Virus record (IMG/VR): IMGVR_UViG_3300004770_000001
Location: 1 to 52,133 of that record
Strand: one strand, 5' to 3'
Origin: a virus
DNA length: 52,133 nt
Below, one piece after another: positions 7,626 through 45,886 of the stretch. Made by a program: the position numbers and the translations under genes. Under the pieces are notes generated by a model, which saw only the letters and a program-made list of their open reading frames with translations, did no database searches and was not told the DNA's origin. The number at the start of each line of letters is the position of its first letter. The first letter of the stretch is position 1.

Positions 7626-7710
7626 ATTGTTTAATCCAGGTAGAGCCAAAAGAGTTAATTACTCAAAAAACAATAGACTTAATTAAAAAAGCTATTAATA
7701 ATTTTTCACC

Positions 7711-9374: not shown

Positions 9375-9405
9375 TTGCAAAACCGCAACACGAATTTTTA
9401 AAGCT
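9375..9405 (+). promoter_or_regulatory. Conserved intergenic motif A, copy 1 (before portal)
   Basis: TTGCA-AAAC-CGCAA-CACGA, followed by ATTTTTAAAGCTAT. It is an imperfect inverted repeat (TTGCA/CGCAA) with a fixed CACGA tail, in the 77-base gap between terminase and portal. Other copies start at 13185, 21891 and 27689. A TAAATTTAT block lies 31 bases after CACG (9423), the same distance as in copy 4. Confidence 0.65.
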
Positions 9406-9449
9406 ATACAACAACACTATTGTAAATTTATACCTATCAAATACATTAG

Positions 9450-10940
9450 ATGAAGTGGCCTTCTTTCGGTTTAAGTAAAAAAAAGCCGGGTGCCGGTGGT
9501 GCTATTATGGACCCTGCGGTTAACCCGGTTAATCCTATAAACGATTATAATGCGGCAATCTTTGGTTGGTTAAACAATAATCAGCCATTATACTACGACG
9601 ACAAGTTTACTAACTATGTCGAGCGTGGTTATATGAGTACGCCGGACGTTTTCATCTGTATTAATAAAATCAATCAAAAGCTTGCAATGTGTCCTCCGGT
9701 ACTTTACGAGGTTGCAAGTGAAGATGTCGCACAAATCAGGAAATACAAAAATCTGATCAGCTCACCCGACATAAAAGCGCAATACCAGGCAAAGCTTATC
9801 GAAATTAAATCGCTTAAAAAGGTTTACGAACCAACAATAAGCAAAATGCTCAATAAACCTAATCCTTACGAAACTTGGAGCGATTGGGTTAAGAATTGGG
9901 CCGGGTTTAAACTGATAACTGGAAATACTTACACTTACCTAAACGGACCGAATCCAGAAAAAGGAATGTGGAATGAAATGTTCGTTTTGCCTTCTCACTA
10001 CATCGAGATTGTTTCAGGTGGACCGTGGCAGCCGGTTAAAGGTTATAGGTTAGTCGGACAAGGCCATTATTACCAAAGTGAAAATATCGCATTTACAGCA
10101 AATCAGGTAGTACATAGCAAAACGTTCAACCCGGATTATCGTTCTATCGGTTCGCAGCTTTACGGTATGTCACCGTTAAAGCCGTTTTTGATTACTTTGT
10201 ACAAAAACCAGGTAACAAGGGAGGAACTTTCAAGGCAAGCTAAAAACGGTGGCGTTCTTGGTTTTATTGGTCCGGGTAAAGATGGTATCCCTTTACAATC
10301 AGCACAAAGGGACGATTTAAGAGAGCAAGTTAAACGGGCTAAAATGGGGGATTCTATTTCTGATCGTTTGTTTGTAAGTAGCGGACCATTAAACTGGCAG
10401 CAAATCGGATTGCCATCCGTAGAATTGCAATTACTTGAATCGTTAGATTGGGATCAAAAAGATATTTGCAACGCTTACAACGTTCCTATTCAGTTAATGA
10501 ACTCGCAAGAGGCTAGCACTGACAATAATATGCAGTGGGCAATGAAGCAGTTTATCTACAATGCTATCATGCCGGAGGCTAACGAACTCGGTGACATGCT
10601 TACACGGGCATTGTGCGCGAATCTTAATGCTAAAAGTGCGCAAACGGGTAAATCTTACGAAATTATCATTGATACTACCAGTTTACCCGAAATGCAAGAA
10701 GATCAGCAGAAAATAGCTGCATGGCTGGCTGAATCTGATTGGCTTACTTACAATGAAAAGAGAGAAGTTCAGGGCTTTGGTAAATCTACACTTGCAGGAA
10801 CAGACGAATTGTTTATTGATAGCAATAAAGTATTACTTCGTGATGCAGCTTCATTTGATAATGAGATAACAGCAGCAGCAGGTAAAGAAAGCCCGGCACC
10901 AGTAGAACCGAATCCTAAAGAGGATGATCCACAACTATGA
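9450..10940 (+). CDS. Portal protein (HK97-like)
   Basis: The 496-residue protein forms the dodecameric ring through which DNA enters. Recognisable features are TPDVFICINKINQKLAMCPP near the N-terminus, the VFNKP-like loop as MLNKPNPYETWSDW, FVLPSHYIEI, and the C-terminal DICNAYNVPIQLMN with a following TDNNMQWA, all typical of HK97-family portals. It follows terminase and precedes a Mu F-like protein, the normal order. It overlaps the next gene by 17 bases. Confidence 0.92.
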   Translation: MKWPSFGLSKKKPGAGGAIMDPAVNPVNPINDYNAAIFGWLNNNQPLYYDDKFTNYVERGYMSTPDVFICINKINQKLAMCPPVLYEVASEDVAQIRKYKNLISSPDIKAQYQAKLIEIKSLKKVYEPTISKMLNKPNPYETWSDWVKNWAGFKLITGNTYTYLNGPNPEKGMWNEMFVLPSHYIEIVSGGPWQPVKGYRLVGQGHYYQSENIAFTANQVVHSKTFNPDYRSIGSQLYGMSPLKPFLITLYKNQVTREELSRQAKNGGVLGFIGPGKDGIPLQSAQRDDLREQVKRAKMGDSISDRLFVSSGPLNWQQIGLPSVELQLLESLDWDQKDICNAYNVPIQLMNSQEASTDNNMQWAMKQFIYNAIMPEANELGDMLTRALCANLNAKSAQTGKSYEIIIDTTSLPEMQEDQQKIAAWLAESDWLTYNEKREVQGFGKSTLAGTDELFIDSNKVLLRDAASFDNEITAAAGKESPAPVEPNPKEDDPQL

Positions 10941-11748
10941 TAATGTTTTAGACTTCGACCGTGACAAGTTCGCTAAGGAGTTTAAAAGAACGCATCACAA
11001 GTATGAGCGTTCTGTTATTACATTATTTCAAAACGCATTAAAGCAGCAGGTAAAACCAGTTATTGATTTTGTAAAAGCAAACGGATCTGAAAACCTTAAA
11101 ACTCATTTATCTGCGCTAATTACTATTTCACCTATCCAGCACGCATACCGGGAATGTTATGTTAAAGTAGGTGTTCAACATGCGGAATTTATCTATAAAT
11201 GGATTCAAAAAATAGCAGGTAAAAAGGACTTAGGTTTTTTTAGTGCAGTTTGGCGAAAGTTAATGCAACACTTTTATTTGACTGATAGCGCACAACGGGT
11301 AAAGAATGTTAGCGACACTACTAAAGACAGGATTGCTCAGGCACTCGATGAAGCAGAGGCGCAAGGCTTAACGAAAAGCCAAACAGCGGATTATTTGGTT
11401 AACACTTTACAAAGCGACGATTTTACGAGGTCGAGGGCGCTAACAATCGCAAGAACCGAATCAACGGCAGCGGCCAGTCAAGGCGCAATGCTTGCGGCAG
11501 ATAGTTCAGATTATTTAGTCGGCAAAATATGGATTCCGATTGTTGATGCAAACACAAGGCCAGCTCATGCAGAAATGGACGGTGAACCTGCTATCTCTTT
11601 AACTGATCAGTTTGATGTCGGTGGTGAATTATTGAGTTATCCAGGGGATTTGTCTGGATCACCGGGTAACGTTATTAACTGCCGGTGTTGTGTTGCGATG
11701 GTTCCACTGGCTGATGATAACGGGCTGCCGATACTAAAAGCTGCCTAA
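10924..11748 (+). CDS. Mu F-like head morphogenesis (minor capsid) protein
   Basis: The 274-residue protein has a long helical N-terminus, then ALTIARTESTAAASQGAMLA, IPIVDANTRPAHAEMDGEPA and a C-terminal GNVINCRCCVAMVPL. The RTE..., D.RTR/DANTRPAH..mDG and CRC patterns define the Mu gpF/SPP1 gp7-like minor head proteins, which take part in procapsid assembly and possibly DNA ejection. It ends convergently onto the reverse cassette, overlapping its last gene by four bases. Confidence 0.88.
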   Translation: MIHNYDNVLDFDRDKFAKEFKRTHHKYERSVITLFQNALKQQVKPVIDFVKANGSENLKTHLSALITISPIQHAYRECYVKVGVQHAEFIYKWIQKIAGKKDLGFFSAVWRKLMQHFYLTDSAQRVKNVSDTTKDRIAQALDEAEAQGLTKSQTADYLVNTLQSDDFTRSRALTIARTESTAAASQGAMLAADSSDYLVGKIWIPIVDANTRPAHAEMDGEPAISLTDQFDVGGELLSYPGDLSGSPGNVINCRCCVAMVPLADDNGLPILKAA

Positions 11749-12005
11749 ATATTCACCTGAAAATTTTCATCATAAGTATAAACAGCCATCGGGCATGTTA
11801 TTTTGTGGTTGTAGATTGCGATGCAAATCGGACTGCCTGCTAATATCGCTTCAATATCTTCCTTACTGGGTTGAAACTGCATTAAAATGTACGGGTTGCC
11901 TTCTTTATCAATTCCCCTCATTCCCGGAATAGGGATACAATCCTTTTCAAATCGGGCCGGAATTTCGCTTTGATAATTTGAACCTTTGAAGTCAACTGGC
12001 AACAT
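11745..12005 (-). CDS. Hypothetical protein, reverse cassette gene 4
   Basis: The 86-residue protein begins MLPVDFKGSNYQSEIPARFE and appears to be a single beta-rich domain with Cys at three places. No family is recognised. It is last in a four-gene minus-strand cassette inside the head operon, convergent with the Mu F-like gene. The cassette position suggests a moron, expressed independently of late genes. Confidence 0.6.
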   Translation of the reverse strand: MLPVDFKGSNYQSEIPARFEKDCIPIPGMRGIDKEGNPYILMQFQPSKEDIEAILAGSPICIAIYNHKITCPMAVYTYDENFQVNI

Positions 12006-12022
12006 TCGTGCAAGTTACGCAC

Positions 12023-12382
12023 TTACCATGAGATTTTTATAAAATGTTGGCGTTGATATACTTCTTCCGAAACAGAATAACCTAAGCTTTTAATGTATTC
12101 TAATCCGGCTTCATTAATTTCGGAATGAAATGTTCTTATAAACCGATGGCCATATTTAGCATTCTTTTTTATGTTATCCAATAAAGTATTTACTTGATTG
12201 GCATTTATTGTTAAAGCCAATCTTTCGGCTTCCAAAACCAAATAACGAGCCTTTTCAACATCAAAATCATTAAGCTTATCATCTTCTTTAATTCTGTTGA
12301 CATTTAACAAAATATCTTCAAATTTTACAAGGGTTTTTACCGATTTGTGTTTTTGTGGCCTAAATGCCTGAAATAATCCCAT
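12023..12382 (-). CDS. Hypothetical helical protein, reverse cassette gene 3
   Basis: The 119-residue protein begins MGLFQAFRPQKHKSVKTLVK. A charged helical middle (DVEKARYLVLEAERLALT) and a C-terminal domain ending YQRQHFIKISW follow. No family is recognised. The DNA looks more AT-rich than the flanking head genes. Confidence 0.55.
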   Translation of the reverse strand: MGLFQAFRPQKHKSVKTLVKFEDILLNVNRIKEDDKLNDFDVEKARYLVLEAERLALTINANQVNTLLDNIKKNAKYGHRFIRTFHSEINEAGLEYIKSLGYSVSEEVYQRQHFIKISW

Positions 12383-12412
12383 TGTTAATGATTTTTTGTT
12401 AAAAAATGTGAA

Positions 12413-12877
12413 TTAATGACCAAATGAAGCAAAAATACCGCGAATCATATCTTTTGATTCAGTCTTATTGATTTTACCCTCCGGTACACTAAACGGTAAT
12501 TCCTGATTAAATAATTCAAAAGTTAAATTCTGTAATTCGTGAATAAACTTTAAAGTTTTTATAGGGAACTGTTTATCAATCTCATTGTATTGCCCAATCC
12601 AAAATTCAAAACCATGAGTTAAAAAAAAGTTTAATTCTGAATGTTGAAAAATACCTTTTTCCGATTCAAAAAAATTTGAAAGTAGTAATTCGTGTGTTAA
12701 TTCAATGCCTTCTAAATTATCTTCCCTATCCCAATCGAGCGATACCTCAAAACTGGGTTCGACATTTATTCCGTAATCGCAAACACTATCGACAATAACC
12801 GGGTAATATCCATTTGTATAACAAATGTTTGTTTGATTTACGATATTCCCTACTCGAAGTGATTTTGTATCAATCAT
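12413..12877 (-). CDS. Conserved Bacteroidota phage protein, reverse cassette gene 2
   Basis: The 154-residue protein begins MIDTKSLRVGNIVNQTNICY and has a C-terminal motif HELQNLTFELFNQEL. I recognise the pair of motifs (L+.GN.V at the start and hxLQNLyFaLtgeEL near the end) as a protein recurring in Bacteroidota phages and prophages, of unknown function. Its start overlaps the stop of the preceding cassette gene by four bases, showing that the cassette is one operon. Confidence 0.65.
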   Translation of the reverse strand: MIDTKSLRVGNIVNQTNICYTNGYYPVIVDSVCDYGINVEPSFEVSLDWDREDNLEGIELTHELLLSNFFESEKGIFQHSELNFFLTHGFEFWIGQYNEIDKQFPIKTLKFIHELQNLTFELFNQELPFSVPEGKINKTESKDMIRGIFASFGH

Positions 12878-13074
12878 GCTGTCTTTTTAATTATCTGCCA
12901 TTCAATTTCAGCAGGTTCATAACCAAACTTTGCAAAAAACCATATTAAGGTGCTTTGCTTTACGGTTCCGTTCTTCCAACGGCGCTTAATTGAAAACGCA
13001 GTACTGTGATTCATTACACCTGCATAAAACTTCGGCTCGGTGCAAATAATTCCCATTAGCTCGTCTGTAGTCAT
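12874..13074 (-). CDS. Small HTH-like protein, reverse cassette gene 1
   Basis: The 66-residue protein begins MTTDELMGIICTEPKFYAGV. It contains AFSIKRRWKNGTVKQSTLIWF and ends FGYEPAEIEWQIIKK. This resembles the small helix-turn-helix proteins found in Bacteroidota phages, which may bind DNA. It is first in the minus-strand cassette, and the divergent region 13075-13252 must carry its promoter as well as that of the protease gene. A regulatory role for the cassette is plausible but unproven. Confidence 0.6.
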   Translation of the reverse strand: MTTDELMGIICTEPKFYAGVMNHSTAFSIKRRWKNGTVKQSTLIWFFAKFGYEPAEIEWQIIKKTA

Positions 13075-13184
13075 AGGCTAAAAAATTTTCATGTTTGATA
13101 TTTTTACCAAAATGACCAACAGCTAAACAAAGGCGTAATCTTCAACTATTTAGGTCAAGTAAAGGTAATTACAAGCATTTGTAT

Positions 13185-13215
13185 TTGCAATAGTGCAACA
13201 CGATAATTTTTCACA
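13185..13215 (+). promoter_or_regulatory. Conserved intergenic motif A, copy 2 (before prohead protease)
   Basis: TTGCA-ATAG-TGCAA-CACGA followed by TAATTTT. It has the perfect inverted repeat TTGCA/TGCAA. It lies in the divergent region between the reverse cassette and the protease gene, in the same orientation as the other three copies, about 50 bases before the ATG at 13253. A TAATTTTAT block is 30 bases after CACG. Confidence 0.65.
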
Positions 13216-13252
13216 ATGATGAAAATAAATCTAATTTTATTGAGGTATAGCT

Positions 13253-14158
13253 ATGACACTTCCAAACGGTAATTTTCTTAAAAGCAAAACGGGCATTGTA
13301 GAAGTGCCTAAAAAGTTTCTTGAATTTAAGAGCATTAACAACGCTTCGGCTGAAATCAAGGACATTGATTTTAAAAACCGTATTGTTTCCTGTTATTGGA
13401 GTGCTTTTAATAATAAAGACTTCGACGACGACATAATGGTGCAGGGATGCTACAAAAAGTCAATAGCCGAAAACGGCCCGCAAGGGGCTAATAAGATATT
13501 TTACTTAAAGTCACACAACTGGGAAAACCCATTAGGCAAGCCTACTTTATTGCAGGAAGATTCAAAAGGTCTTTATGCTGAAATCCCTGTAACATCGGGA
13601 GCATCATTCGCTGAGGATACTTTAAAGCTGATGGCAGCCGGATTGATGATTCAGAACTCGGTAGGTTTTCAAACGGTGAAATACAATACAGTTATGCCGG
13701 ATGAAAACGATTGGCAGACCTGGTACCGGGAAATATTAGAGGTAAAACTTTATGAAGGATCAGCGGTGGTTTTGGGTGCTAATGAAGATACACCTTTTCA
13801 GGGCTTCAAAAGCATGACACCTGCGGAGCTTGTTGATCTTGAAAGCAAAATATTTAAAACACTTCGCTCTGGAAATTTACGGGACGAAACTTATGAACGG
13901 TTAGAATTTGCAATTAAACAGTTGCAAAGGGAAACATATTTATTGGGTCAATCTGAAAAGTCACTTACTGAAAACGAACAGCCGAAGATGATGACGGTGA
14001 GCTGCCCTGAATGTAATAAAGACATGGATGTTGACGACGATTCGTCGGAAATGGAATGTCCTTACTGCAAGTGCATGTTTACTAAGAGTTTCACTGTTAC
14101 GAAGCGTAAGCCGAAAGGAGCGATTGGAGCAATAGCGTCAATTAAAATAAATCTGTAA
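13253..14158 (+). CDS. HK97-type prohead protease with C-terminal zinc ribbon
   Basis: The 301-residue protein has a serine protease domain in its first 190 residues. His88 in LKSHNWENPLG and Ser136 in IQNSVGFQ are at the expected places of the HK97 prohead protease catalytic pair. It matures the capsid by cutting the N-terminal domain of the major capsid protein encoded next. After a helical linker, residues about 250-276 form a CPEC...CPYC zinc ribbon. Zinc ribbons are not part of the usual protease. This added domain may tie it to scaffold, portal or nucleic acid (inference). Confidence 0.88.
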   Translation: MTLPNGNFLKSKTGIVEVPKKFLEFKSINNASAEIKDIDFKNRIVSCYWSAFNNKDFDDDIMVQGCYKKSIAENGPQGANKIFYLKSHNWENPLGKPTLLQEDSKGLYAEIPVTSGASFAEDTLKLMAAGLMIQNSVGFQTVKYNTVMPDENDWQTWYREILEVKLYEGSAVVLGANEDTPFQGFKSMTPAELVDLESKIFKTLRSGNLRDETYERLEFAIKQLQRETYLLGQSEKSLTENEQPKMMTVSCPECNKDMDVDDDSSEMECPYCKCMFTKSFTVTKRKPKGAIGAIASIKINL

Positions 14159-14177
14159 TCAAAAAAATTTAACAAAA

Positions 14178-15641
14178 ATGAAAACCATTAAAATATTAAA
14201 CTCCCTGTTTTTTGCGGTGGCGTTTTCTTTATTTGTGGGTGCCGCTACACAATCGCCGTTTGTTGCGATGGGTGTTTTTGGTTTCCTGATGATCGGTGGC
14301 CTTGTGCTTAACGCATCGAAATTTAATACCGATGGAATGCTCGGTGAATTTTTAACCATTTTGGATTCGGATTCCGAAGAAATCAAAGGTTATAAAAAGA
14401 ACATGAATAGCCTGGGCGATGCCGCTGTAAAAAAGGCTAAGGAAGAAGCCGCTAAAGAAGCAGAAGAAAAAGCTAAAAAGCTAATCGAAGATGCTGTTAA
14501 AAAGGTAAACGAAGATGCTGAAACTAAGATCAAAGTTTTGCGCGACGAAGTAGAGGCTAAAAACAAAGAAACCGAAGATGCTTTAACTCAGCTTAACCGT
14601 TTCAAAGAAATCGGCAAAGCTAATGAGAATAAAGGTGTTTCTTTTCAGGATTCATTGCTTGAGCAAATGGCAACTCCGGAGGCTTTGGATGGTTTCAAAC
14701 AACTTGCAAGCGGTAAAAAAGGCGCTGGCGTTAAATTGGAATTGAAAACCGTTAGCACTATGGGCTTATCGAGCATTTCAGGTCTTGACGTTGCTCGTGC
14801 CGAATTGCTTCCTGGTATCCTGCCAATTCCGAAGCGTAAAATTCACGTTCGTGACATTATCGCAACAGGCCGCATGACCGCATCAGATATCCACTTCTTG
14901 AAGATGACTTCAACTGATGGTACTGGTGCTATGTCGGTAGCAGAAAACGCTCAGATCAACCAGATCGATTTTAACTTTATCGAATCACTTGCTCCAAGCC
15001 AGTACATTTCGGCATTCTTGAAAATCAGCCGTAAATCACTTGATGACATCACTGCATTGCGTGCTTCGATTGCTGATCGTTTGTTACAGGAATATTTGCT
15101 TGCTGAAGATACTCAGCTTTTGACTGGTAACGGCTCAGGTTCAAACTTAACTGGTTTGATTAACTCGGCTAACTCATTCGCTTACGCTGGTTCTAAAACT
15201 AAGCCTGTCGAAATGTTGATTGATGCTGCAGCTTATGTTGAAACTAACAACCTGCAAGTTACAGGTATATTGTTGCACCCGATTGACTGGTCTTCAATCC
15301 TGTTAACTCAATCTTCTGGTTCAACTGCCGGTATCTACTCGCTGCCAGGTTTAGGTGTTGTTAGTTTGCAAAACGGTATCCTGCATATCAATGATATTCC
15401 GGTTTACAAATCTACTGCAATATCTCAGGGTGAAGCTCTGTTGGGTGACTGGCAGAATGGTGCGCAGTTGTTCTTACGTGAAGATCCTATTGTTGAGTTC
15501 TTCGAGCAAGACGGTACAAACGCACAATACAATCAGATTACTGTTCGTGTTCAGGGTCGTGTAGCATTGCCAGTTTACTACGGTGGTGCAGGTGGCGCAT
15601 TCTGTCGCGTTAACATCTCTGGTTCAGGCTATCAATCTTAA
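14178..15641 (+). CDS. Major capsid protein (HK97 fold) with hydrophobic and coiled-coil N-terminus
   Basis: The 487-residue protein ends in an HK97-like shell domain: LSGLDVARAELLPG..., IADRLLQEYLLAEDTQLLTG, HPIDWSSILL and VQGRVALPVYYGGAG. In front are about 155 residues with two hydrophobic stretches (about 8-24 and 28-45) and an Ala/Lys/Glu-rich coiled coil (about 80-145). The coiled coil is the usual scaffold (delta) domain removed by the protease. The membrane-like start is unusual and may help assembly at a membrane or act in packing inside the procapsid. A terminator follows. Confidence 0.9.
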   Translation: MKTIKILNSLFFAVAFSLFVGAATQSPFVAMGVFGFLMIGGLVLNASKFNTDGMLGEFLTILDSDSEEIKGYKKNMNSLGDAAVKKAKEEAAKEAEEKAKKLIEDAVKKVNEDAETKIKVLRDEVEAKNKETEDALTQLNRFKEIGKANENKGVSFQDSLLEQMATPEALDGFKQLASGKKGAGVKLELKTVSTMGLSSISGLDVARAELLPGILPIPKRKIHVRDIIATGRMTASDIHFLKMTSTDGTGAMSVAENAQINQIDFNFIESLAPSQYISAFLKISRKSLDDITALRASIADRLLQEYLLAEDTQLLTGNGSGSNLTGLINSANSFAYAGSKTKPVEMLIDAAAYVETNNLQVTGILLHPIDWSSILLTQSSGSTAGIYSLPGLGVVSLQNGILHINDIPVYKSTAISQGEALLGDWQNGAQLFLREDPIVEFFEQDGTNAQYNQITVRVQGRVALPVYYGGAGGAFCRVNISGSGYQS

Positions 15642-15697
15642 TAGCATTTGGGTAGTGGAAACACTCTTAATAGTTGATTAATTGTTTGTTGGGGAAA

Positions 15698-15724
15698 GGC
15701 CGGGTTAAAATCCCGGTCTTTTTT
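15698..15724 (+). terminator. Rho-independent terminator after the capsid gene
   Basis: GGCCGGG (15698-15704) and CCCGGTC (15712-15718) form a 7-bp stem with a 7-base loop, followed by six T. It follows the major capsid stop by about 57 bases. It probably sets capsid mRNA apart from the lower-expressed glycosylation island. Confidence 0.8.
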
Positions 15725-15752
15725 AGAACTAAAATATTTCAAAAGTAACACT

Positions 15753-15926
15753 ATGGCAGATGACCAAAAAGAATACACACCGTTAAAACTCGATAAGGGA
15801 CTAAAGGAAGTAGTTAAGAAAAAAGCCGAAGAAGAAAACAGATCGGTAAATAACTACATCGAAACATCCTTAATCGAAAAGACGGGGTATAAAAAAGGCA
15901 TACATACTAAAAAACGTGAATATTAA
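15753..15926 (+). CDS. Small ribbon-helix-helix-like protein
   Basis: The 57-residue protein has TPLKLDKGLKEVVKKKAEEE followed by NRSVNNYIETSL. The pattern LK+D..L...V...A....+S.N.YIE..L is that of Arc/CopG or HicB-type ribbon-helix-helix domains. It overlaps the next gene as TAATG. It might regulate the island or simply be a moron. It is the second such protein in the genome. Confidence 0.65.
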   Translation: MADDQKEYTPLKLDKGLKEVVKKKAEEENRSVNNYIETSLIEKTGYKKGIHTKKREY

Positions 15927-16534
15927 TGGGTTTGGAAAGCATTGAATTTAACGGCAAAGTTTATCCGTCTTTTCAGGCTACGGGTAACGCTGCGAGGTGG
16001 TGCAGACCATTCGCTGACGAAATACTCAAAGGTTTAACTCACGGCTTAGATATTGGCTATTCCAAAGAAGAATGGAAGTATCCGGGATCTATAGGTATCG
16101 AGCCGTCAATAAACCCTCAGTTTCATGCGATGAATTTGCCAGTTTACGGAGGCGAGGGATTTGATTACATCCATAGTTCCCATAGCCTTGAACATGTTAA
16201 AGAAAATTGGATGAATGTTCTGGATTATTGGATGAGCGTTTTACGGGTTGGCGGTATTCTGTTTTTGTATCTGCCGCATGTATCACAAGAATACTGGCAG
16301 ACATGGAGCAACCGTAAGCACGTTCACCAATTCACTGGCACCGAAATAGCGGACTATCTCAAATCAAAAGGCCACAAGGTTTTTTTAAGTAGTGTTGATC
16401 TAAATAACAGCTTTATTGTTGTTGCTGAAAAGTCTATTTACAGCGATAGCAAAAGCAACGATCCCAAAACAAAACTCGGTGATTTACCACCAAGTGAACG
16501 ATTCACCTTTGATATAACCGGGAACGCACAATGA
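15926..16534 (+). CDS. Class I SAM-dependent methyltransferase-like protein
   Basis: The 202-residue protein has GLDIGYSKEEW (motif I-like, about residues 39-49), FDYIHSSHSLEHVKE (motif IV-like, as in methyltransferase_11) and VLRVGGILFLYLPH (post-motif V). The second acidic residue of the usual E/DxGxGxG loop is changed (DIGYSKE), so SAM binding is probable but not certain. It opens a run with two glycosyltransferases between capsid and connector genes. It may O-methylate or otherwise tailor sugars placed on the virion (inference). Confidence 0.7.
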   Translation: MGLESIEFNGKVYPSFQATGNAARWCRPFADEILKGLTHGLDIGYSKEEWKYPGSIGIEPSINPQFHAMNLPVYGGEGFDYIHSSHSLEHVKENWMNVLDYWMSVLRVGGILFLYLPHVSQEYWQTWSNRKHVHQFTGTEIADYLKSKGHKVFLSSVDLNNSFIVVAEKSIYSDSKSNDPKTKLGDLPPSERFTFDITGNAQ

Positions 16535-16689
16535 CATCAAAAATTAAAATCAGAGTTATTCAGCGGACATCTAAAAAGCCTAAAAGGGAATTATCAAATA
16601 CAACATTCTTTTTTAGATACGGCAGGTTTTTGCTTGCTGAATCAAGTATAACAAGAACTGGAAGAACTAATTTTAAATCCTACTTGTAA
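16531..16689 (+). CDS. Small basic hypothetical protein, 52 residues
   Basis: The protein begins MTSKIKIRVIQRTSKKPKRE and is strongly basic. It starts by ATGA overlap with the methyltransferase and stops one base before the next ATG. The tight coupling is the main support. No family is recognised. Confidence 0.45.
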   Translation: MTSKIKIRVIQRTSKKPKRELSNTTFFFRYGRFLLAESSITRTGRTNFKSYL

Positions 16690-16690
16690 A

Positions 16691-16990
16691 ATGATAAAAT
16701 GGTTTAAAAAAGTATTAGCGATGCTCATTCGCTACCATTTAGCCGGGAAGGGTTATCAGTTCATTGAACCTTCCTTAGTAAAGGTTACACCAAGCTTAGT
16801 TTACAAAGGAAAAATTGCGCCTGCAGGAAAGGTTTTCTATATAGCATCACTTAAATATCGTGGCGTTTATTTTCATAAAGATGTAGCTATTGAAAGAAAA
16901 GACATCAGTCCGGCTGACGAAAAGAAACTGATTAGGTTATGCCAGGTGAAATTTGTTAGAGGTATTGAAAAACGAATCAATAAAGCATGA
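16691..16990 (+). CDS. Hypothetical protein in the glycosylation island
   Basis: The 99-residue protein begins MIKWFKKVLAMLIRYHLAGK. A basic amphipathic N-terminal helix is followed by a small beta-rich domain. Its stop overlaps the glycosyltransferase start by four bases. The function is unknown. The amphipathic start might attach it to membrane. Confidence 0.5.
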   Translation: MIKWFKKVLAMLIRYHLAGKGYQFIEPSLVKVTPSLVYKGKIAPAGKVFYIASLKYRGVYFHKDVAIERKDISPADEKKLIRLCQVKFVRGIEKRINKA

Positions 16991-18891: not shown

Positions 18892-18894
18892 GCC

Positions 18895-19857: not shown

Positions 19858-20393
19858 TGGCAACACAATTAGATGTGCTTTCCCTTGCGGATGCAAAAGA
19901 TTACTTAGCAATTGATTTCCCGGATTGGGACAGCACAATTACGCTTGCAATTTATGGTATGGTTAACCTTGTTGAACAGTTAACCAATTACAGGCTATAT
20001 GAACGACAAGAAGTCATTCAGGTAGGTACGGTTAAATATGATGCTTTTCAGTATCCTATAAATAATATCGTCAGCGTAATTGATCAGAATGGGTATCCCT
20101 CTGTTTACAAATTAGAGCAACTTCCGCTGCGGTGGGCTTTTACTTTTAAGAAGCCTGTTCAGGACTTTTACGCTGACGATTATTCTTATTACACAGGCCC
20201 GGCAGTAAACTATCTAAATACGATTACGCTCGATGTAGGTTATGCCGACACTTCTAAAATTCCTGATGCTATCGTTTATGCGATTAAACTTCTGGTTACG
20301 GAAGTAATGGAAAACAGGATTCCAACAAAAGAATCCATGCCGAACGATATATCAATGCTGTTAAATCCTTACATGCGGTCAACTTATTTTTAA
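19857..20393 (+). CDS. Head-tail connector protein (gp6-like)
   Basis: The 178-residue protein begins with a block ending LSLADAKDYLAIDFPDWDST, followed by VEQLTNYRLYERQEV. A LSLxeaKxyLridxxxdDxxI start with a helical bundle is the gp6/phage_connect adaptor signature. It would form the ring below the portal. It is followed by the head closure gene three bases later. Confidence 0.85.
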   Translation: MATQLDVLSLADAKDYLAIDFPDWDSTITLAIYGMVNLVEQLTNYRLYERQEVIQVGTVKYDAFQYPINNIVSVIDQNGYPSVYKLEQLPLRWAFTFKKPVQDFYADDYSYYTGPAVNYLNTITLDVGYADTSKIPDAIVYAIKLLVTEVMENRIPTKESMPNDISMLLNPYMRSTYF

Positions 20394-20396
20394 AAG

Positions 20397-20828
20397 ATGA
20401 ATCCTGGATTATTTAATAAGCGAATACGGTTTTTTGTTGAAACTGCAACCCAAAATGAATACGGTGGATCTGTTACAACTTTAACACCTGTATCTAATGT
20501 TTCACCGGATGCTAAAGACGGCGACCATACAGCTACATGGGGAGCTTTAGAACCTATTCGCCAATACCATCAATTTGCAATCGAGGCCGGTGCCAGCGTT
20601 ATGAATGGCGACCGTTTTTTGAAGATACGGAAACGGGCAAGCTTTTACCCAACTAAAAATATGGTGTTTCAGGACATCAGCGATCCTAATAATACAAATC
20701 CTGACACTTACACGATAGTTTCAGTATTACCTTACTGGCCAGGTGCTAAAGCAAGTTTCCAAAACGGACAGGAAACAGCTTACCATGATCAGTATTTTGT
20801 TTGGATGCTCGGAGTAAAAAGAAGTTAA
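20397..20828 (+). CDS. Head-tail adaptor / head closure protein
   Basis: The 143-residue protein begins MNPGLFNKRIRFFVETATQN and has TATWGALEPIRQYH and VMNGDRFLKIRKR. This is the pattern of SPP1 gp16 or HK97 gp7-like stopper proteins (L..RI.......d..G......W.a..p). It sits between connector and gp10-like genes as expected. It overlaps the next gene as TAATG. Confidence 0.82.
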   Translation: MNPGLFNKRIRFFVETATQNEYGGSVTTLTPVSNVSPDAKDGDHTATWGALEPIRQYHQFAIEAGASVMNGDRFLKIRKRASFYPTKNMVFQDISDPNNTNPDTYTIVSVLPYWPGAKASFQNGQETAYHDQYFVWMLGVKRS

Positions 20829-21430
20829 TGACAGCGTTTAGGATAGATGGAGTTCAGGAAACAATTCAAAAGCTTTTAGCTATATCTGACAGGTCCGCAC
20901 GAATCGCATCGGCTCAGGTAAATGTAATAGCTGATAAAATTGTTTTGGATGCGAAGCAAAGCGCACCGGCTGATCTCGGAACTATTCGGCAAAGTATCGG
21001 TAAAGAAAATGCCGACACGCAAGGGCTATTAGTTTCGATATTTTGTTCTGCACCAGAAGCGCCATTTCAGGAATTTGGGACAGGTGGAAAGGTTGATGTT
21101 CCTGAAGAAATGGCCGATGTTGCAGCGCAGTTTCAGGGGCAGAAAAGCGGAGGGATGGAAGATTTTATTAAGGCGTTGACTGATTGGGTTAGGCGGCATG
21201 GTTTGACAGGGGTTTACAGCGTTGCTACTCATAAACGAGTTACCAATAAAAACTTTACAAAACAAAGCAATGCGGATGCCGACGAACAAGCTGCCTGGGC
21301 AATAGCAAAAACAATATTAAGGGACGGATTAACACCTCAGCCTTTTTTATATCCGGCTTATGTAGAGCATAGGGACGAACTTTTGCCAGCTTTACAAAAT
21401 GCCCTGCGCGAAATGATGACGCAGCAATAA
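20828..21430 (+). CDS. HK97 gp10-like tail completion protein
   Basis: The 200-residue protein has VIADKIVLDAKQSAPADLGT, IRQSIG, then PEAPFQEFGTGGKVDVP and a C-terminal TPQPFLYPAYVEHRDELLP. The A..PvdtG.Lr.sI, E.GT and PfLrPA motifs define the HK97 gp10 family, which joins the connector complex to the tail. Start 20828 gives the TAATG overlap with the upstream stop, which favours it over 20801. Confidence 0.85.
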   Translation: MTAFRIDGVQETIQKLLAISDRSARIASAQVNVIADKIVLDAKQSAPADLGTIRQSIGKENADTQGLLVSIFCSAPEAPFQEFGTGGKVDVPEEMADVAAQFQGQKSGGMEDFIKALTDWVRRHGLTGVYSVATHKRVTNKNFTKQSNADADEQAAWAIAKTILRDGLTPQPFLYPAYVEHRDELLPALQNALREMMTQQ

Positions 21431-21438
21431 ATTTCATA

Positions 21439-21456
21439 TAAATGAAAACTTTGAAA
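21439..21456 (+). promoter_or_regulatory. Conserved intergenic motif B, copy 2 (before tail terminator)
   Basis: TAAATGAAA-ACT-TTGAAA, identical at all 15 fixed positions to the copies at 7711 and 39463. It ends only four bases before the ATG at 21461, so if it is a promoter element it cannot start this gene in the ordinary way. It may act in translation or on RNA instead. Confidence 0.5.
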
Positions 21457-21460
21457 TAAA

Positions 21461-21889
21461 ATGGTACCTGATAAATACATACGAAAAGCCTATTATAATT
21501 TACTTAGTGGGTTGGTTAGCGGAAGCGTTGCAGTTCCCGTTTATGATAAGCTTGTACCTAAATCAGTCGATCCTGTTCCAGCCGTTAGGGTTATTATAAA
21601 TTCAATCACTAAAAAACAGGCAGATACTTCAAGAGCAGGTCACGATTGGAACGCTACTATTGAACTCGATATAATAGCTGAGTTTAGCAATGGTAATGTT
21701 AACTCGGTTATAGTTGATGACATTGAAGATCAGATCAGCACAATAATCGATTTAGCCGGGCCGGATATTAGCGTGGATAATTTCACCGTTTACAATACTC
21801 AGGTAACAGTTGCAGCCGACAGAGTTATGAACTACCCGACACGATCAGTTCATAGCAGGGTGGTAAGGTATAATCATATTTTGGGATAG
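21461..21889 (+). CDS. Tail terminator-like protein (DUF3168/gpU-like)
   Basis: The 142-residue protein begins MVPDKYIRKAYYNLLSGLVS and has VPVYDKLVP, PAVRVIINSITKKQ and ATIELDIIAEF. This arrangement fits tail terminator proteins that cap the tail tube. Its place between the gp10-like protein and the tail tube protein supports this. The stop is directly followed by motif A copy 3. Confidence 0.75.
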   Translation: MVPDKYIRKAYYNLLSGLVSGSVAVPVYDKLVPKSVDPVPAVRVIINSITKKQADTSRAGHDWNATIELDIIAEFSNGNVNSVIVDDIEDQISTIIDLAGPDISVDNFTVYNTQVTVAADRVMNYPTRSVHSRVVRYNHILG

Positions 21890-21890
21890 T

Positions 21891-21925
21891 TTGCATTTAT
21901 GCAACACGAAAATTTAAAGCTATTA
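21891..21925 (+). promoter_or_regulatory. Conserved intergenic motif A, copy 3 (before tail tube)
   Basis: TTGCA-TTTA-TGCAA-CACGA followed by AAATTTAAAGCTATT. The inverted repeat is perfect. It begins one base after the tail terminator stop and lies about 77 bases before the tail tube ATG at 21972. A TAAATTCAT block lies at 21952. Confidence 0.65.
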
Positions 21926-21971
21926 ACCGTTTACTTTTTATCTTTAATTGATAAATTCATAATCATTTAAA

Positions 21972-22409
21972 ATGAGCGCAAAAAAAGAAAAGGGTAAAGA
22001 CCTCATCGTCTATATTAATGGCGTTGCGGTACTTTACGACGAATCCAGCACAATTAATTTCACTGCAAAAACAGCCGATACAACCAGCCGGGCATCACAA
22101 GACGCTAACGGTACTATCTGGGAGGAAGCAGTTCCTATTTCAATCGGTATAAAGATAACTGGTAGCGGATTTTTGGTTAATGATAATCCTTCAGGCGGTG
22201 CCGCTGTTTATTCGTCAGGCCGTTTATATACTGCCCTTGCTAATCAAACTCTGGTTTATGCTACATGGAAAAGCCAGGACGGTTTATTCTTATATGGTTG
22301 CGATTGCTTCGTAATGGATCTTAAAGTAACTGCAACTGTTAAAGATGTAGCGAAATATGACTATACGCTGCAAGGTAACGGTGTTGTGAGCTTAGTTCCA
22401 GTTAGCTAA
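21972..22409 (+). CDS. Major tail (tube) protein
   Basis: The 145-residue protein begins MSAKKEKGKDLIVYINGVAV and has TINFTAKTADTTSRASQDAN, then TGSGFLVND and a C-terminal YDYTLQGNGVVSLVP. This is a TP901-1/lambda V-like tail tube subunit. It has its own leader with motif A, as expected for a highly made protein. A longer paralogue is encoded at 27767. It overlaps the chaperone gene as TAATG. Confidence 0.85.
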   Translation: MSAKKEKGKDLIVYINGVAVLYDESSTINFTAKTADTTSRASQDANGTIWEEAVPISIGIKITGSGFLVNDNPSGGAAVYSSGRLYTALANQTLVYATWKSQDGLFLYGCDCFVMDLKVTATVKDVAKYDYTLQGNGVVSLVPVS

Positions 22410-22816
22410 TGGCTGAAATTACTGATTTCAATCTTCCTGAACCAGTTGTGTTAAACATTGGTGGCGAAAAGTTCTTATGGCACTTCAATAATTATGCGCT
22501 CGTTGAATTAGGCCATTTAACTAAAAGCGAACCGTTTAACGCTCATATAGCTTTGCAAAATGTAGCAAAGCGCGATGTAATACAAGGCCTGGCTTATTTG
22601 CTTTATGCCGGATTGGTGGGTTACGAAAAGATGCAGGGAAATTTTGATCATGGCATTGAAATGAAAAAGATTGCTGGGTTTACTGCGACTGCCAATATAA
22701 ACGATTTTGCACCATTGTGGGATGCTTTCAAAGCTTCTACGGACATGGGCGAGTTTCTGGTAACACTGAGAGGCAAAGAAGATAAAGACGCTGAAAAAAG
22801 CGTAAAAAAAAAGTAG
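22409..22816 (+). CDS. Tail assembly chaperone, short (G-like) form
   Basis: The 135-residue protein starts by TAATG overlap with the tail tube gene and ends just after an A9G run. It lies exactly between tail tube and tape measure genes, the fixed place of tail assembly chaperones. The helical sequence (NNYALVELGHLTK... LLYAGLVGYE) is consistent. A second, longer product is expected through -1 frameshifting at 22807-22813. Confidence 0.85.
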   Translation: MAEITDFNLPEPVVLNIGGEKFLWHFNNYALVELGHLTKSEPFNAHIALQNVAKRDVIQGLAYLLYAGLVGYEKMQGNFDHGIEMKKIAGFTATANINDFAPLWDAFKASTDMGEFLVTLRGKEDKDAEKSVKKK

Positions 22817-23151
22817 AAATAAACTGGCGTAGTATCTGCGAGTTTGCGCTCGGTGATGTAGGACTACGAAAACATGAGTTTCTTTCTATGACATGGTATG
22901 AATATACCGTTTTACTCGGTGGGCATATCAAAAGAAGTGTAAAAGAATGGGAGCATTCCCGGTTTATCGCTTATTATACCTATTGGGCTAACAGCGATGA
23001 AAACCGTGATAAAATAACAGATTTCCTGCCATTAGTAACTGATCCTGAACCAGAAGCGGCTAAAGAGTTAAGCCAGGATGAAAAGGATAGGATTTTTGCA
23101 GAAATAAAAATAAGGGAAGAAGCATTTAAACAGATCAAAAATGGCGGGTGA
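22409..23151 (+). CDS. Tail assembly chaperone, long (G-T-like) form by -1 frameshift
   Basis: After the slippery A-AAA-AAG at 22807-22813, the -1 frame stays open without a start codon from 22801 to the stop at 23149-23151. The extension reads KVEINWRSICEFALGDVGLR, KHEFLSMTWYEYTVLLGGH and so on, about 113 residues. The segment GLRKHEFLSMTWYEY matches the usual T-domain pattern (G+...F..MT..E). The fusion of about 247 residues would bind the tape measure during tail assembly. An internal ATG at 22888 is unlikely to be the true start because conserved sequence lies upstream of it. Confidence 0.85.
22804..22813 (+). promoter_or_regulatory. Programmed -1 ribosomal frameshift site (A9G)
   Basis: Nine A followed by G gives the heptamer A-AAA-AAG in the zero frame at 22807-22813, one codon before the stop at 22814-22816. 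This is one of the most efficient bacterial -1 slippery sequences, known from dnaX. Frame arithmetic (22409 frame to 22801 frame) requires exactly -1. Confidence 0.85.
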
Positions 23152-25075
23152 AGATTTAAGGCTCACCATTGGGGCCGACATAGATGCTTATCAAAACGGC
23201 TTAAAACAGGCCGGACAACTCACACAGAATTTTAGTAATGATGTATCACGTTCATTAGCTGGGGCAGCAGCATCAACAGATGCTTTAGGCGGCTCAGCAA
23301 TGTCAGCGTCGATGAAGTTTTATACCATGCGTTCGGGCGTAAGTGCTGCCCGTGATGGTGTAATGGCTTTTACTTTAGGTGGTCAAGCGGCAGAACGTTC
23401 CTTGCTTGCAATGGGTCACCACATCACAAGCTTAGTAAACGAAACCGGAAGTTTTAAAGGCGCTTTAGGTGCTTTAGCTTCGTCGCTTTGGGGTCCGGGT
23501 GGTTTAATATTGGGTATTACTCTTGCGGTTGAATTATTTGATAAATTCGGTTCATCTTCAAAGGGTGCCGCTCAATCATCAGCCGAATATATTGATAGTT
23601 TAGATGCAATAACTCAGGCTACAATAAAAGGCAAAGAATCAGGCGAGCAGGAAATAACCCGGTTAAAAATTCTTTACGATGCTACTCAAAACCATACACT
23701 TTCTTTACGGGATCGGAATAAAGCATACGATGAACTCGAAAAGAAATATCCTAATTGGTTTAGTAATGCCGAAAGAGAAAAGACGCTGTTAGGAGAAAAC
23801 AAGAAGGCTTATGATGATTTGTCAAAAGCTATACTTGCTTCTGCTTTGGCTAAAGCTTATGAAGATCAAATAGGTAAAAATGCCGAACGCGAATTTGCTA
23901 ATCAGAATAAAATAACTGACTTATCTAAGCAAAGGGATCAGGCTCAAGGGAGTTACAACAGCCAACTTTCAAGCCTTAAAAAAACATATCCTGGTATTCC
24001 CGAAAGTGAATTAAAAACCCTATACGGCCCGGCTTTGGTCGGTGACATGCAAAAGGTCGCAAGTTTGCAAAAGCAAATAAACGACCTGCAAACTGATAGC
24101 GGATTAATCACTAAGCAAAATCTTGAATTACAGAATTTAGCTACAAATAATGAAGTAAAAGCTGGATTTAGCACAAATCCCGGTGGCGATACTAATAAAA
24201 ATACCGATGCTGTAACGGGGCTTGATTTATTAAAGCAAAAACAGCAAGAGTTTAAAACTGCTTTGGATGATGCTGTAGCTGACAATAAGCCGGCGGAATA
24301 CATCAAAAACCTTGCTATTCAGTACACTGCATTAAGCGAAAAAATCAGCGAGGTTGAACAGAAAATTGCAAACTCTCAGGTAATTGGTGGTGGTGCCGCT
24401 CCTCTTACAGCAGTAGGCACGAAAGCTACGACTATAAACGGGAAAGATGATAATCAATTATCAACAGATAAGCTAACTGGCGACGATATAGCTAAAATGG
24501 CTAAAGCCTATGAAGATTATGTTCATTGGCTAAATATGGCACACCAAAGCAATGCCGACCTTAAAAAAGATAATGCAGAAGAAAATTTAGCATTTAAAGA
24601 ACTTTCAAAAACGGTAGGTCAGGGATTGGTTGGTGCTTTTGAAGCCGCGATGCAAGGAACTCAAAGCTTTGTTCAGGCAATGGGTCAATTTCTTGAAAAG
24701 TTAATTGAAAAGTTAATTGCGGCGGCAGCGGCAGCAGCAGTTGTAGCTGTTTTAATGACCGTTATTTCAGGCGGTTCGTTTTCAGCAGAATTTGCTTCAT
24801 CATTTGGTCAGTTAAGTGGGTTAACGGGCGTAATAGGGTCATTGGGCGGCACAGCAACATCAAGTTTACCACAACACGCAAACGGTGGTATTGCTACATC
24901 TGCATCAATAGGAATATTCGGTGAAGCAGGGCCAGAAGCATTGATTCCATTAAACCGAATGAATGAATTTACAGGTGGTGGCGGTGGAAATATGGAAGTT
25001 ACGCACCGGGTATCGGGATCTGATTTGCTTTTAGTTATTAATCGTGCAACAAAAACACAAGGCCGTAAATCATAA
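23141..25075 (+). CDS. Tape measure protein
   Basis: The 644-residue protein begins MAGEDLRLTIGADIDAYQNG and LKQAGQLTQNFSNDVSRSL, the usual start of tape measure proteins. Helical and coiled-coil sequence follows, then a hydrophobic segment near residue 530 (LIAAAAAAAVVAVLMTVISG) and a C-terminal FGEAGPEALIPLNRM, a very common tape measure ending. The length predicts a tail of roughly 95-100 nm if about 1.5 Å per residue holds. It overlaps the chaperone by 11 bases and the next gene as TAATG. Confidence 0.92.
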   Translation: MAGEDLRLTIGADIDAYQNGLKQAGQLTQNFSNDVSRSLAGAAASTDALGGSAMSASMKFYTMRSGVSAARDGVMAFTLGGQAAERSLLAMGHHITSLVNETGSFKGALGALASSLWGPGGLILGITLAVELFDKFGSSSKGAAQSSAEYIDSLDAITQATIKGKESGEQEITRLKILYDATQNHTLSLRDRNKAYDELEKKYPNWFSNAEREKTLLGENKKAYDDLSKAILASALAKAYEDQIGKNAEREFANQNKITDLSKQRDQAQGSYNSQLSSLKKTYPGIPESELKTLYGPALVGDMQKVASLQKQINDLQTDSGLITKQNLELQNLATNNEVKAGFSTNPGGDTNKNTDAVTGLDLLKQKQQEFKTALDDAVADNKPAEYIKNLAIQYTALSEKISEVEQKIANSQVIGGGAAPLTAVGTKATTINGKDDNQLSTDKLTGDDIAKMAKAYEDYVHWLNMAHQSNADLKKDNAEENLAFKELSKTVGQGLVGAFEAAMQGTQSFVQAMGQFLEKLIEKLIAAAAAAAVVAVLMTVISGGSFSAEFASSFGQLSGLTGVIGSLGGTATSSLPQHANGGIATSASIGIFGEAGPEALIPLNRMNEFTGGGGGNMEVTHRVSGSDLLLVINRATKTQGRKS

Positions 25076-27684
25076 TGGTTACATTATACACCTTTAGAAA
25101 AAGTAATTATTTATACACGGTTTACCGGGATGATACTAACTATGCCCTTGTAAATTACTATTCTACTTATTCGCCGGGCGTTGACAGCCAGCCGCCAGCT
25201 AATACTACTATTTCAGTAGTTTGCGTGCCGGGTACCTACGATCAATATTCCTACAAAACTCAAACTGCCGTTCCTTATGTTTACATTGACATAAACCATG
25301 ATGCTGCGGAATGCGGATACGTGCCGCCAGCTTGTGACGTTGCTATTTCAAGTTTTACAAAAAGCGATCAGACTGCAACGGGCGTAAATGACGGCAGCGC
25401 AAATTTATTTTGTACTTCCTCATCGCCTCCAATAACTTACTACTTATACACATCAGCGGATGTTTTAGTAACTCAAAATACTACCGGGTTATTTACAGGC
25501 CTTGCGCCAGGTGATTACTACATCAAAGCTTATGATACTCGTTTGTGTTATCAGATTCAAACCTTTACTATTTTAGCTTATGATGAAACATCGCAAACGC
25601 ATTGGAAATATCGTTTAGATTTCACAAGTTTAGACGGCCTTACAAGCTGGGAATTGAGGCTTATAGATGTTTTCCATAATTACGATAATACAGTTTACCC
25701 GATTGACATAACAGGGCAAGATGAGCCTATCGTCAAAAAAGTAGCAGATCCAAACGAAGATAAAACGACTTCAATAATATGCACAACGCTGGATATAAAC
25801 CTTGAATATACCGGAAACGATTTTACTATTGAAGAATTTATAGTTCCTGAGCAAAGCTGGAAAGTTGAATTATATAAAGATGGCGTTTTGGACTTTCAAG
25901 GCTGGATTTTGCCGGACGAAACGCAAAACTATTATTCAGATGCCCCCTATGCAGTTACCCTGACAGCTACCGACGGACTGGCAAGCTTAAAGGGCAATCT
26001 TTGGGGAGATGGTTCGGGCGGTCAGGGTTATGGATCGTATCAAATCGCGCAATACGGCTTTACTTCATGGGCGCTTCTTGTTAAACAGTGCTTAGATCAG
26101 TTAGGCTACGATTACGGTAGCACAACTATAATTTCATCGCTTCAATTTGCCGGAACTTATGATGTAAATCTATGGGTTGAAATAGGCATGTGGAGTGATA
26201 TTCTTTACGATTCGTCAGGCATTCCTACCGATACCTATTCTGCATTAGGCTTGCTTTTGGGAGGCTTAAAATTAAGTATCGTCCAGCATAAAGGCTATTT
26301 TGTTTTATTCAATAGTAACGACCTTTTTTATTTAAACAAATCTGCAAGGTCGGCAGACTTTGAAAATGCAGTTTATCAATTAGGCCCGACATTTGAGAAT
26401 ATTGCGGAAACTGGTACAGCGGTAGAGCAACCATTAAATCAATTAATTGGCAAAGATTATCCCGGCATACCAATTAATCCCCCACAAGGTATAAATTACG
26501 ATAAAGCTTATAATATTAAAGAAAGAGTAGATTTTAACTCTTTGGCGTTGCTTTTTACTAATCCGAGTTTTGAAGTTGGCGCCGTTCAGGGTAATTTGCC
26601 ACCTGAATTTCAATTTTATGGACCCACACCCACACCGGCTTATTGTAATTACGACCCAGTAATACCAGGAGTCACAAATTCAGGAGCATTTGACGGTGTA
26701 TGGGAATTACAAACCGAATGGCATACAGCATCAGGAGTCAATGCTCCAGCATTTGGAAGTCAGGCTCAGCTTATTAATCCAATAGTTATTGATCAGCCTT
26801 TGGTTGGTATCAATCTGTCATATCAATGGCGAGGTAATACACCATTTAATTCATATATAAAAATTGGCCCATCAGTAGCTTTAATATTTACCGAAACATC
26901 AACAGGTCTAACATGGTGGTGGAATAATAGGCCAACTCCCGGCCCTGCTTGGAAACCATTTACATCGGAATCCGATATAGGTGCTTTATATGTTGGTGAT
27001 GATGCAACTGATAATAGATGGCACAATTTTACGGTTCAAACAGCATCATTGCCAAATAGTGGAATTGGAACTATTCAAATTATGATAAATGGCCCTGGTT
27101 ACGTTTATACAACCGGCCATGAGCTTCCAGCAGGAACACTAATTTCTGTATCTATTGATGACTTAAATATTACCCAGTACAGTACAATAGTTTCATCAGT
27201 AAATCAAGTAGCTGAAATACATCAGACTGCTAAAGTAGTGGAATTACCAAATTCAAACATTAAAAATCCGAATCTAAATCTTTTTACTTTCCCCACAAAC
27301 AAACGTTGTGCAGGAAATATATTCTATTGCCCGGATATTAGCATTAATTATGCTTCGGGTATCGTTGCTAATACTTGGAATTTCGCTTTGAAAGTTGCTG
27401 ACCCATCAGATAGACTACCTGCGACAATCACAAGGGCATACGCTCGAAACTATGCCCGGCAAATGCTAAAATGGGAAGGTGACGTTAAAACAAACTACCT
27501 GCAATTTTACGGAACGTTCCAAGTCGAATACTTTGATAGTAAAGTTTTTTTAGCATTTTCTATTGAAAGCAAGCTTAGATCAGGCATTCATCATGTGGTA
27601 TTAATCGAGATTGACGATTCCGATGCTCAAAACGTTTACACCTATACACCTGTATATGAGAACAGCGCGAGAACGCTTCAATAG
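25075..27684 (+). CDS. Distal tail / baseplate protein with SprB-like repeat
   Basis: The 869-residue protein follows the tape measure gene, where distal tail and tail-associated proteins lie. Residues about 80-165 (from CDVAISSFTKSDQTATGVND to the end of QIQTFTI) resemble one SprB-type adhesin repeat: DGSANL, PPITYYLY, GLAPGDYYIKAYD, C. The next part (about 175-330: WKYRLDFTSLDGLTSWELRL, then VELYKDGVLDFQGWILPDE) looks like a distal tail hub. A jelly-roll-like carbohydrate-binding segment may follow near residues 490-710. It likely forms the tail tip contacting the host. Confidence 0.72.
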   Translation: MVTLYTFRKSNYLYTVYRDDTNYALVNYYSTYSPGVDSQPPANTTISVVCVPGTYDQYSYKTQTAVPYVYIDINHDAAECGYVPPACDVAISSFTKSDQTATGVNDGSANLFCTSSSPPITYYLYTSADVLVTQNTTGLFTGLAPGDYYIKAYDTRLCYQIQTFTILAYDETSQTHWKYRLDFTSLDGLTSWELRLIDVFHNYDNTVYPIDITGQDEPIVKKVADPNEDKTTSIICTTLDINLEYTGNDFTIEEFIVPEQSWKVELYKDGVLDFQGWILPDETQNYYSDAPYAVTLTATDGLASLKGNLWGDGSGGQGYGSYQIAQYGFTSWALLVKQCLDQLGYDYGSTTIISSLQFAGTYDVNLWVEIGMWSDILYDSSGIPTDTYSALGLLLGGLKLSIVQHKGYFVLFNSNDLFYLNKSARSADFENAVYQLGPTFENIAETGTAVEQPLNQLIGKDYPGIPINPPQGINYDKAYNIKERVDFNSLALLFTNPSFEVGAVQGNLPPEFQFYGPTPTPAYCNYDPVIPGVTNSGAFDGVWELQTEWHTASGVNAPAFGSQAQLINPIVIDQPLVGINLSYQWRGNTPFNSYIKIGPSVALIFTETSTGLTWWWNNRPTPGPAWKPFTSESDIGALYVGDDATDNRWHNFTVQTASLPNSGIGTIQIMINGPGYVYTTGHELPAGTLISVSIDDLNITQYSTIVSSVNQVAEIHQTAKVVELPNSNIKNPNLNLFTFPTNKRCAGNIFYCPDISINYASGIVANTWNFALKVADPSDRLPATITRAYARNYARQMLKWEGDVKTNYLQFYGTFQVEYFDSKVFLAFSIESKLRSGIHHVVLIEIDDSDAQNVYTYTPVYENSARTLQ

Positions 27685-27688
27685 TTCT

Positions 27689-27720
27689 TTGCAGTTTTGC
27701 AACACGAAAATTAAGCTGTA
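27689..27720 (+). promoter_or_regulatory. Conserved intergenic motif A, copy 4 (before second tail-tube protein)
   Basis: TTGCA-GTTT-TGCAA-CACGA followed by AAATTAAGCTGTAT. The inverted repeat is perfect. It starts four bases after the upstream stop, 78 bases before the ATG at 27767. TAAATTTAT occurs 31 bases after CACG (27737), the same as in copy 1. Confidence 0.65.
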
Positions 27721-27766
27721 TAAGAAGCATGTTGGGTAAATTTATGCCTGTTGAATAGTGGAATAA

Positions 27767-45786: not shown

Positions 45787-45794
45787 TGTGTTAT

Positions 45795-45865: not shown

Positions 45866-45886
45866 CATTGTAATTAATTCAAAGAT

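Follow-up and report, generated by a model that had tools for sequence, protein, structure and literature searches.

The window analyzed here is the whole of IMG/VR virus record IMGVR_UViG_3300004770_000001 (52,133 nt). Its positions 1-70 are identical to positions 52064-52133, and this 70-base identity of the two ends indicates a complete genome of about 52,063 bp, circular or permuted, and not a linear fragment. PHROGs and Pfam profiles identify a head-tail module with a portal, a Mu F-like protein, a Peptidase_S78 protease, an HK97-type capsid, and two tail tubes (Table 1). By gene content the phage is temperate, as it carries an integrase-like gene (42664-44028, assigned by reading the sequence) and an S24-type repressor gene (45019-45786). 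The nearest named phages, judged by terminase and portal, have hosts in Flavobacterium, Cellulophaga, Elizabethkingia, Bacteroides, and others; the collections searched yielded no close relative, just identical copies or pieces of the same phage from three metagenomes.

Three further features of the genome are recorded here. Within the late module, a minus-strand cassette of four genes (11745-13074) separates the Mu F-like gene from the protease gene; relatives carry other inserts at this site, some of them homing endonuclease genes. A tRNA-like sequence with a clear T arm (GTGGGTTCGACTCCCAC) precedes the holin-like gene (39519-39600). It is not called as a tRNA by ARAGORN, gives only a sub-threshold tmRNA T-arm match in Rfam, and is possibly a degenerate tRNA or an attachment remnant. 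Near the lysis genes, 41697-42035 encodes a small zinc-ribbon-like protein (CX4C...CPKC) that has no Ogr match.

Table 1. Positions of the repeated element, the associated promoter boxes, and the genes discussed (window coordinates, except for the two prophage rows)
Feature	Position	Strand	Remarks
Motif A copy 1	9375..9393	+	TTGCA-AAAC-CGCAA + CACGA; 1 mismatch; 2 nt past the stop of the terminase large subunit gene
Motif A copy 2	13185..13203	+	0 mismatches; divergent gap beside the minus-strand cassette
Motif A copy 3	21891..21909	+	0 mismatches; 1 nt past the stop of the tail terminator gene
Motif A copy 4	27689..27707	+	0 mismatches; 4 nt past the stop of the upstream gene
-7 box TAAATTTA, portal promoter	9423..9430	+	Predicted start near 9435; register from PMC6847099
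-7 box TAATTTTA, prohead protease promoter	13232..13239	+	Predicted start near 13244
-7 box TATCTTTA, first tail-tube promoter	21939..21946	+	Predicted start near 21951
-7 box TAAATTTA, second tail-tube promoter	27737..27744	+	Predicted start near 27749
Presumed early promoter TTG-N19-TAAATTAG (comparator)	45836..45865	+	Beside the S24-type repressor gene; no motif A
Portal protein gene	9450..10940	+	Opens late block 1; PHROG portal 1.2e-41, PF04860
Prohead protease gene	13253..14158	+	PF04586, PHROG
Major capsid gene	14178-15641		Next after the prohead protease gene; without its own promoter box
Major tail (tube) protein gene 1	21972..22409	+	PHROG 1407, 8e-16
Major tail (tube) protein gene 2	27767..28444	+	PHROG 1407, 1e-19
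Candidate binder, 98-aa protein	49255-49551	+	PHROG 9069 (unknown function)
Candidate binder, XRE-type HTH	49530-49751	+	
Candidate binder, DnaA domain IV-like HTH	49748-50152	+	
Prophage dyad units, G306 contig C30 (L122, L123)	3025, 9417, 17071, 20609		Box CTATTTAT[CG]
Prophage dyad units, G318 contig C1 (L121, L120)	6071, 15922, 19447		Reverse orientation; box CTATTTAT[CG]

The late region contains a repeated element, TTGCA-N4-TGCAA-CACGA (motif A), comprising a dyad and the tail CACGA. Searching the window at up to three mismatches recovered the four copies listed in the preliminary description, all on the plus strand and all in gaps between genes, and a fifth match at 2248 whose three mismatches place it within the chance range. 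The expected count at one mismatch or fewer on both strands is approximately 0.004, versus four observed. Gaps account for 3.6% of the late region, and the placement of 4/4 copies within them has a chance probability of approximately 1.7e-6. In an unbiased self-search of the window (gapped 15-of-19 mask), motif A was joined by just one other four-copy word, which is A-rich and of low complexity. All four occurrences of the 8-mer CAACACGA in 52 kb, counting either strand, fall at the copies of motif A. The inverted repeat is exact in copies 2-4, in agreement with the earlier account; the single mismatch of copy 1 breaks the dyad pairing. Profile matches also confirmed the names given to the genes that follow (portal, prohead protease, tail tube, and second tail tube), and copies 1, 3, and 4 do begin within five bases of a stop codon.

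A further sequence had been described as following the motif in three copies. An AAAGCT-like part is indeed present, but its offset is common to copies 1 and 3 only. The word AAAGCTATTAA, which copy 3 has in common with two other gaps, was discarded as not specific, as it recurs at 6707 and on the minus strand. The gap at the terminase small subunit gene (7699-7720) has a TAATTTTTCAC-n-AATGAAA-like sequence resembling that after the CACGA of copy 2 (13204-13225). This gap has no dyad, and its end, TATATTTG, lies 14 nt upstream of the start.

Each copy of motif A is followed by a TAnnTTT box at an almost constant offset from the start of the motif (48, 47, 48, and 48 nt for copies 1-4), leaving 29 nt between CACGA and the box, or 28 nt in copy 2; the probability of such a common offset by chance is approximately 4e-6. 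The preliminary description had seen the box in copies 1 and 4 only, exactly 31 bases downstream, and has to be corrected on both points. When motif A with up to six mismatches was searched together with a box at 45-51 nt on both strands, the four sites had 0, 0, 0, and 1 mismatches, and the next best had 5. The sequence TAHHTTTG is the -7 element of the Bacteroidota primary sigma factor, in which T occupies -12 and G occupies -5 (PMC6847099). Its register is known from Flavobacterium johnsoniae transcript data, with which the four late boxes agree (PMC6847099), and predicts a dyad at -60 to -47, CACGA at -46 to -42, and leaders of approximately 9-21 nt. The core of the sigma ABfr -7 element (T-12, A-11, T-8, T-7, and T-6, with no G at -10 or -9) is found in 4/4 boxes. 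As each unit ends in a -7 box, it is best described as a Bacteroidota promoter to which an upstream site has been added, and the earlier statement that the unit is not a known Bacteroidota promoter has to be qualified accordingly. A scan for promoters and terminators of Escherichia coli type gave no excess over shuffled sequences.

The same geometry bears on two other explanations. An inverted repeat on the coding strand in front of structural genes might form a hairpin that stabilizes or processes mRNA, as the preliminary description had allowed when it named an RNA processing or leader element. Against shuffled sequences, the four regions give folding z scores of -0.61, -0.01, -0.36, and -0.05, and no Rfam family matches. 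With no excess of folding, the pairing broken in copy 1, and the predicted start downstream of the motif, a role in the RNA is very improbable. That motif A is confined to one phage would also suit chance, or a recent duplication without function. The expected count given above contradicts the former, and the 4-nt centers and flanks of the copies are unlike one another, which excludes a fresh duplication; the fixed spacing to the -7 box and the regular placement contradict both, and this origin is scarcely credible.

Further evidence comes from distant relatives. A search with the capsid protein identified contigs whose capsids are 44-50% identical and whose genes, from portal to second tail tube, follow the same order, and two further relatives were found through a 634-aa protein, giving about ten phages for comparison (amino-acid identity 25-60%). 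The 45 nt upstream of the start codon of each orthologous late gene were scanned for TAHHTTT[AG]. Counting this phage, the box is present at 15-45 nt before the same four genes in 33/33 gaps (portal 9/9, protease 11/11, tube 1 8/8, tube 2 5/5). Thirteen other late genes have it in 15/115 gaps, six of these at the orthologue of the gene at 23141. The Fisher probability of 1e-21 for this difference overstates independence, because the phages share ancestry; the contrast between genes inside the same phages does not rest on independence of the phages. Motif A itself is absent from these relatives, while the promoters occupy the same places. The complete set of boxes at the same genes indicates that the motif A sites mark four conserved late promoters, and the assignment of predicted late promoters to portal, protease, and both tubes is well supported. 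Terminase relatives (80 loci) and portal-found prophages were too distant for this comparison and lacked motif A, but were of use for the second lineage described below. A distant portal alignment was too poorly conserved as a basis for scanning.

The late promoters differ from the host consensus at two positions. None of the four late promoters of this phage has TTTG or TTG 20-25 nt upstream of the box, and they therefore lack the -33 element of sigma ABfr promoters. The relatives have TTTG 23-24 nt before the box of the portal promoter in 8/8 cases, and TTTG or TTG 20-22 nt before that of tube 1 in 7/7; the element occurs at the protease promoter in 1/10 and at the tube 2 promoter in 0/4. 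At portal and tube 1, this phage thus has the dyad and no -33 TTTG or TTG. Its presumed early promoter beside the repressor gene, taken as a comparator, reads TTG-N19-TAAATTAG and carries no motif A. At -5, where G is near-invariant in host promoters (PMC6847099), the four late boxes have A; in this phage and its relatives, A occupies this position in 30/33 late boxes versus 8/30 of the boxes that precede non-late genes in these phages. Without a -33 element and with A at -5, the late promoters depart from the host consensus as expected if help is needed. The -33 element is weakly conserved in host promoters too (PMC6847099), and given also its absence from relatives at the protease (9/10) and tube 2 (4/4), its loss is no proof of dependence on an activator. 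The first arm and center of the dyad (TTGCAAAA at portal, TTTGCATTTA at tube 1) equal the -33 region of relatives in the same gaps. This is suggestive of descent from a -33 element, although the match is too short to prove it.

Outside the window, motif A together with the -7 box was found in viral contigs only in identical copies of the same phage, besides chance-level matches. Searches of viral contigs with looser arms, or with the AAGCT part replacing the first arm, retrieved no other phage. Stray matches to motif A in viral contigs were in coding sequence, or were single and unplaced, and were treated as chance. The dyad could instead serve as an enhancer for a host regulator, or as a passive element used by RNA polymerase, with no phage activator involved. 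Some phages do borrow host factors, and such a site too would stand upstream at constant spacing. The combination of motif and box is present in 0/400 Sphingobacteriaceae genomes, a family that may not be the host's, and its restriction to late genes suggests late-specific control; use by a host factor or by the polymerase alone is quite unlikely.

The lysogeny repressor or another phage protein could also bind the dyads and silence the late blocks. The repressor of mycobacteriophage L5 binds oriented intergenic stoperators, and motif A is likewise oriented and intergenic, three copies lying directly past stop codons, in a phage whose gene content is temperate. Silencing is nonetheless unlikely: the dyad, centered near -53, has no overlap with the core promoter, its spacing to the -7 box is constant within 1 nt, the sites number only four, and the gap next to the repressor gene contains other inverted repeats and no motif A. 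This divergent gap (45787-45886) combines TTTGTAAA-TTAT-TTTACAAA with the TTG-N19-TAAATTAG promoter, and is likely to be the operator region of the lysogeny switch, judging from its sequence.

An activator remains the best-supported of the functions proposed at the outset, given the fixed spacing to the -7 box and the conserved promoter positions, and the four units are probably activator-dependent late promoters of a temperate Bacteroidota phage. The sequence itself shows the repeated dyad, its fixed spacing to a -7 box, and the four promoter positions conserved in relatives, and a model can be built on these. RNA polymerase with the host primary sigma factor would use the -7 box of the TAAATTTA type and start approximately 12 nt beyond it, the usual -33 contact being missing at the late promoters. 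A protein made by the phage after expression of its early genes would bind, probably in dimeric form, to the dyad and CACGA (approximately -60 to -42) and recruit or activate the polymerase. Most likely, one protein would act at all four sites and switch the late genes on together, as in P2 and Mu. Four transcripts would result, covering portal and head morphogenesis; protease, capsid, and connector; tube 1 to 27684; and tube 2 to 38525.

The late promoters of P2 have a dyad centered near -55. They form a set of four (PF, PO, PP, and PV) under the Ogr activator (PMC3931495), and share with the present set a temperate phage, late promoters for head, capsid, and tail blocks, and one short dyad each. 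In contrast, the P2 site is TGT-N12-ACA and its core TATAAT, where this phage has TTGCA-N4-TGCAA-CACGA and the Bacteroidota -7 box. No Ogr/Delta zinc-finger gene (PF04606) was matched in the phage, although control genomes do match. Mu also has four late promoters (lys, I, P, and mom), at which the dimeric C activator binds upstream of -35 (PMC4461284), comparable to the single upstream activator that we infer here; the site and its spacing differ. A search for C/Mor activators gave one weak match (12.7 bits, E 0.004, cut-off 24.9), in the C-terminal HTH of a homing endonuclease gene. The units would work like P2 and Mu late promoters but belong to neither group, as the site differs, Ogr/Delta is absent, and C/Mor is below threshold.

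Three adjacent small early genes encode candidate binders (Table 1). The DnaA domain IV-like protein matches PF08299 at 26-27 bits, under the cut-off of 31.5, and by eye retains the D-x-T-T of the DnaA recognition helix, which reads CAC-type DNA. As the binder of the dyad, this protein is only a lead. Its gene is present here and was not found in six relatives that have no dyad, but this correlation is weak, since four of the six records fall well short of full length and early regions are almost wholly different. The XRE-type and DnaA-like proteins are possible binders, and none is singled out. A 121-aa protein encoded before the terminase of the G306 prophage was considered as a counterpart of the DnaA domain IV-like protein and set aside, being similar by eye and giving no alignment.

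A comparable arrangement occurs in a second lineage. Two Sphingobacteriaceae prophages found by their portal have a repeated dyad, GAATA-n-TATTC or a related form, with a GTT-containing tail. Approximately 30 nt after dyad and tail, CTATTTATCTG or CTATTTATGGG follows just upstream of the start codon. The genes behind these units encode the terminase small subunit, prohead protease, tail terminator, and major tail protein. From dyad start to box the distance is 45 nt, compared with 48 nt in this phage, and the dyad sequence is unlike motif A. A separate repeated upstream site on late promoters raises the odds that the four units are activator-dependent.

Compared with the sigma ABfr promoter (TTTG/TAHHTTTG), the late promoters of this phage thus retain the -7 core and differ by the A at -5, the lack of TTTG at -33, and the additional dyad and tail. 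Related Bacteroidota phages (the IMG/VR contigs behind L135-L142, L174, and L175) have TAHHTTT[A/G] before the same four genes, mostly with A, but lack motif A and keep TTTG or TTG at -33 at portal and tube 1. It is tempting to speculate, though somewhat against the balance of probability, that temperate Bacteroidota phages have fixed late promoters (portal, protease, and tubes, with a box ending in A) whose upstream sites and activators are swapped: the -33 element in some lineages, TTGCA-N4-TGCAA-CACGA here, and a GAATA-n-TATTC-type dyad in the Sphingobacteriaceae prophages. The activator of this phage would then belong to a new family, possibly as the DnaA domain IV-like or the XRE-type protein (49530-50152).

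For tailed phages of Bacteroidota, a limited search of the open literature turned up no described activator of late genes or type of late promoter, and the site and its putative protein have most likely not been described before. The four sites supply exact coordinates, predicted starts, and a short list of candidates for a Bacteroidota late activator. In this phage family, a TAHHTTTA box in front of a portal, protease, or tail-tube gene can be read as a late promoter. If confirmed, a phage activator compatible with the unusual sigma factor of the Bacteroidota would also be useful for driving strong and switchable expression in this group.
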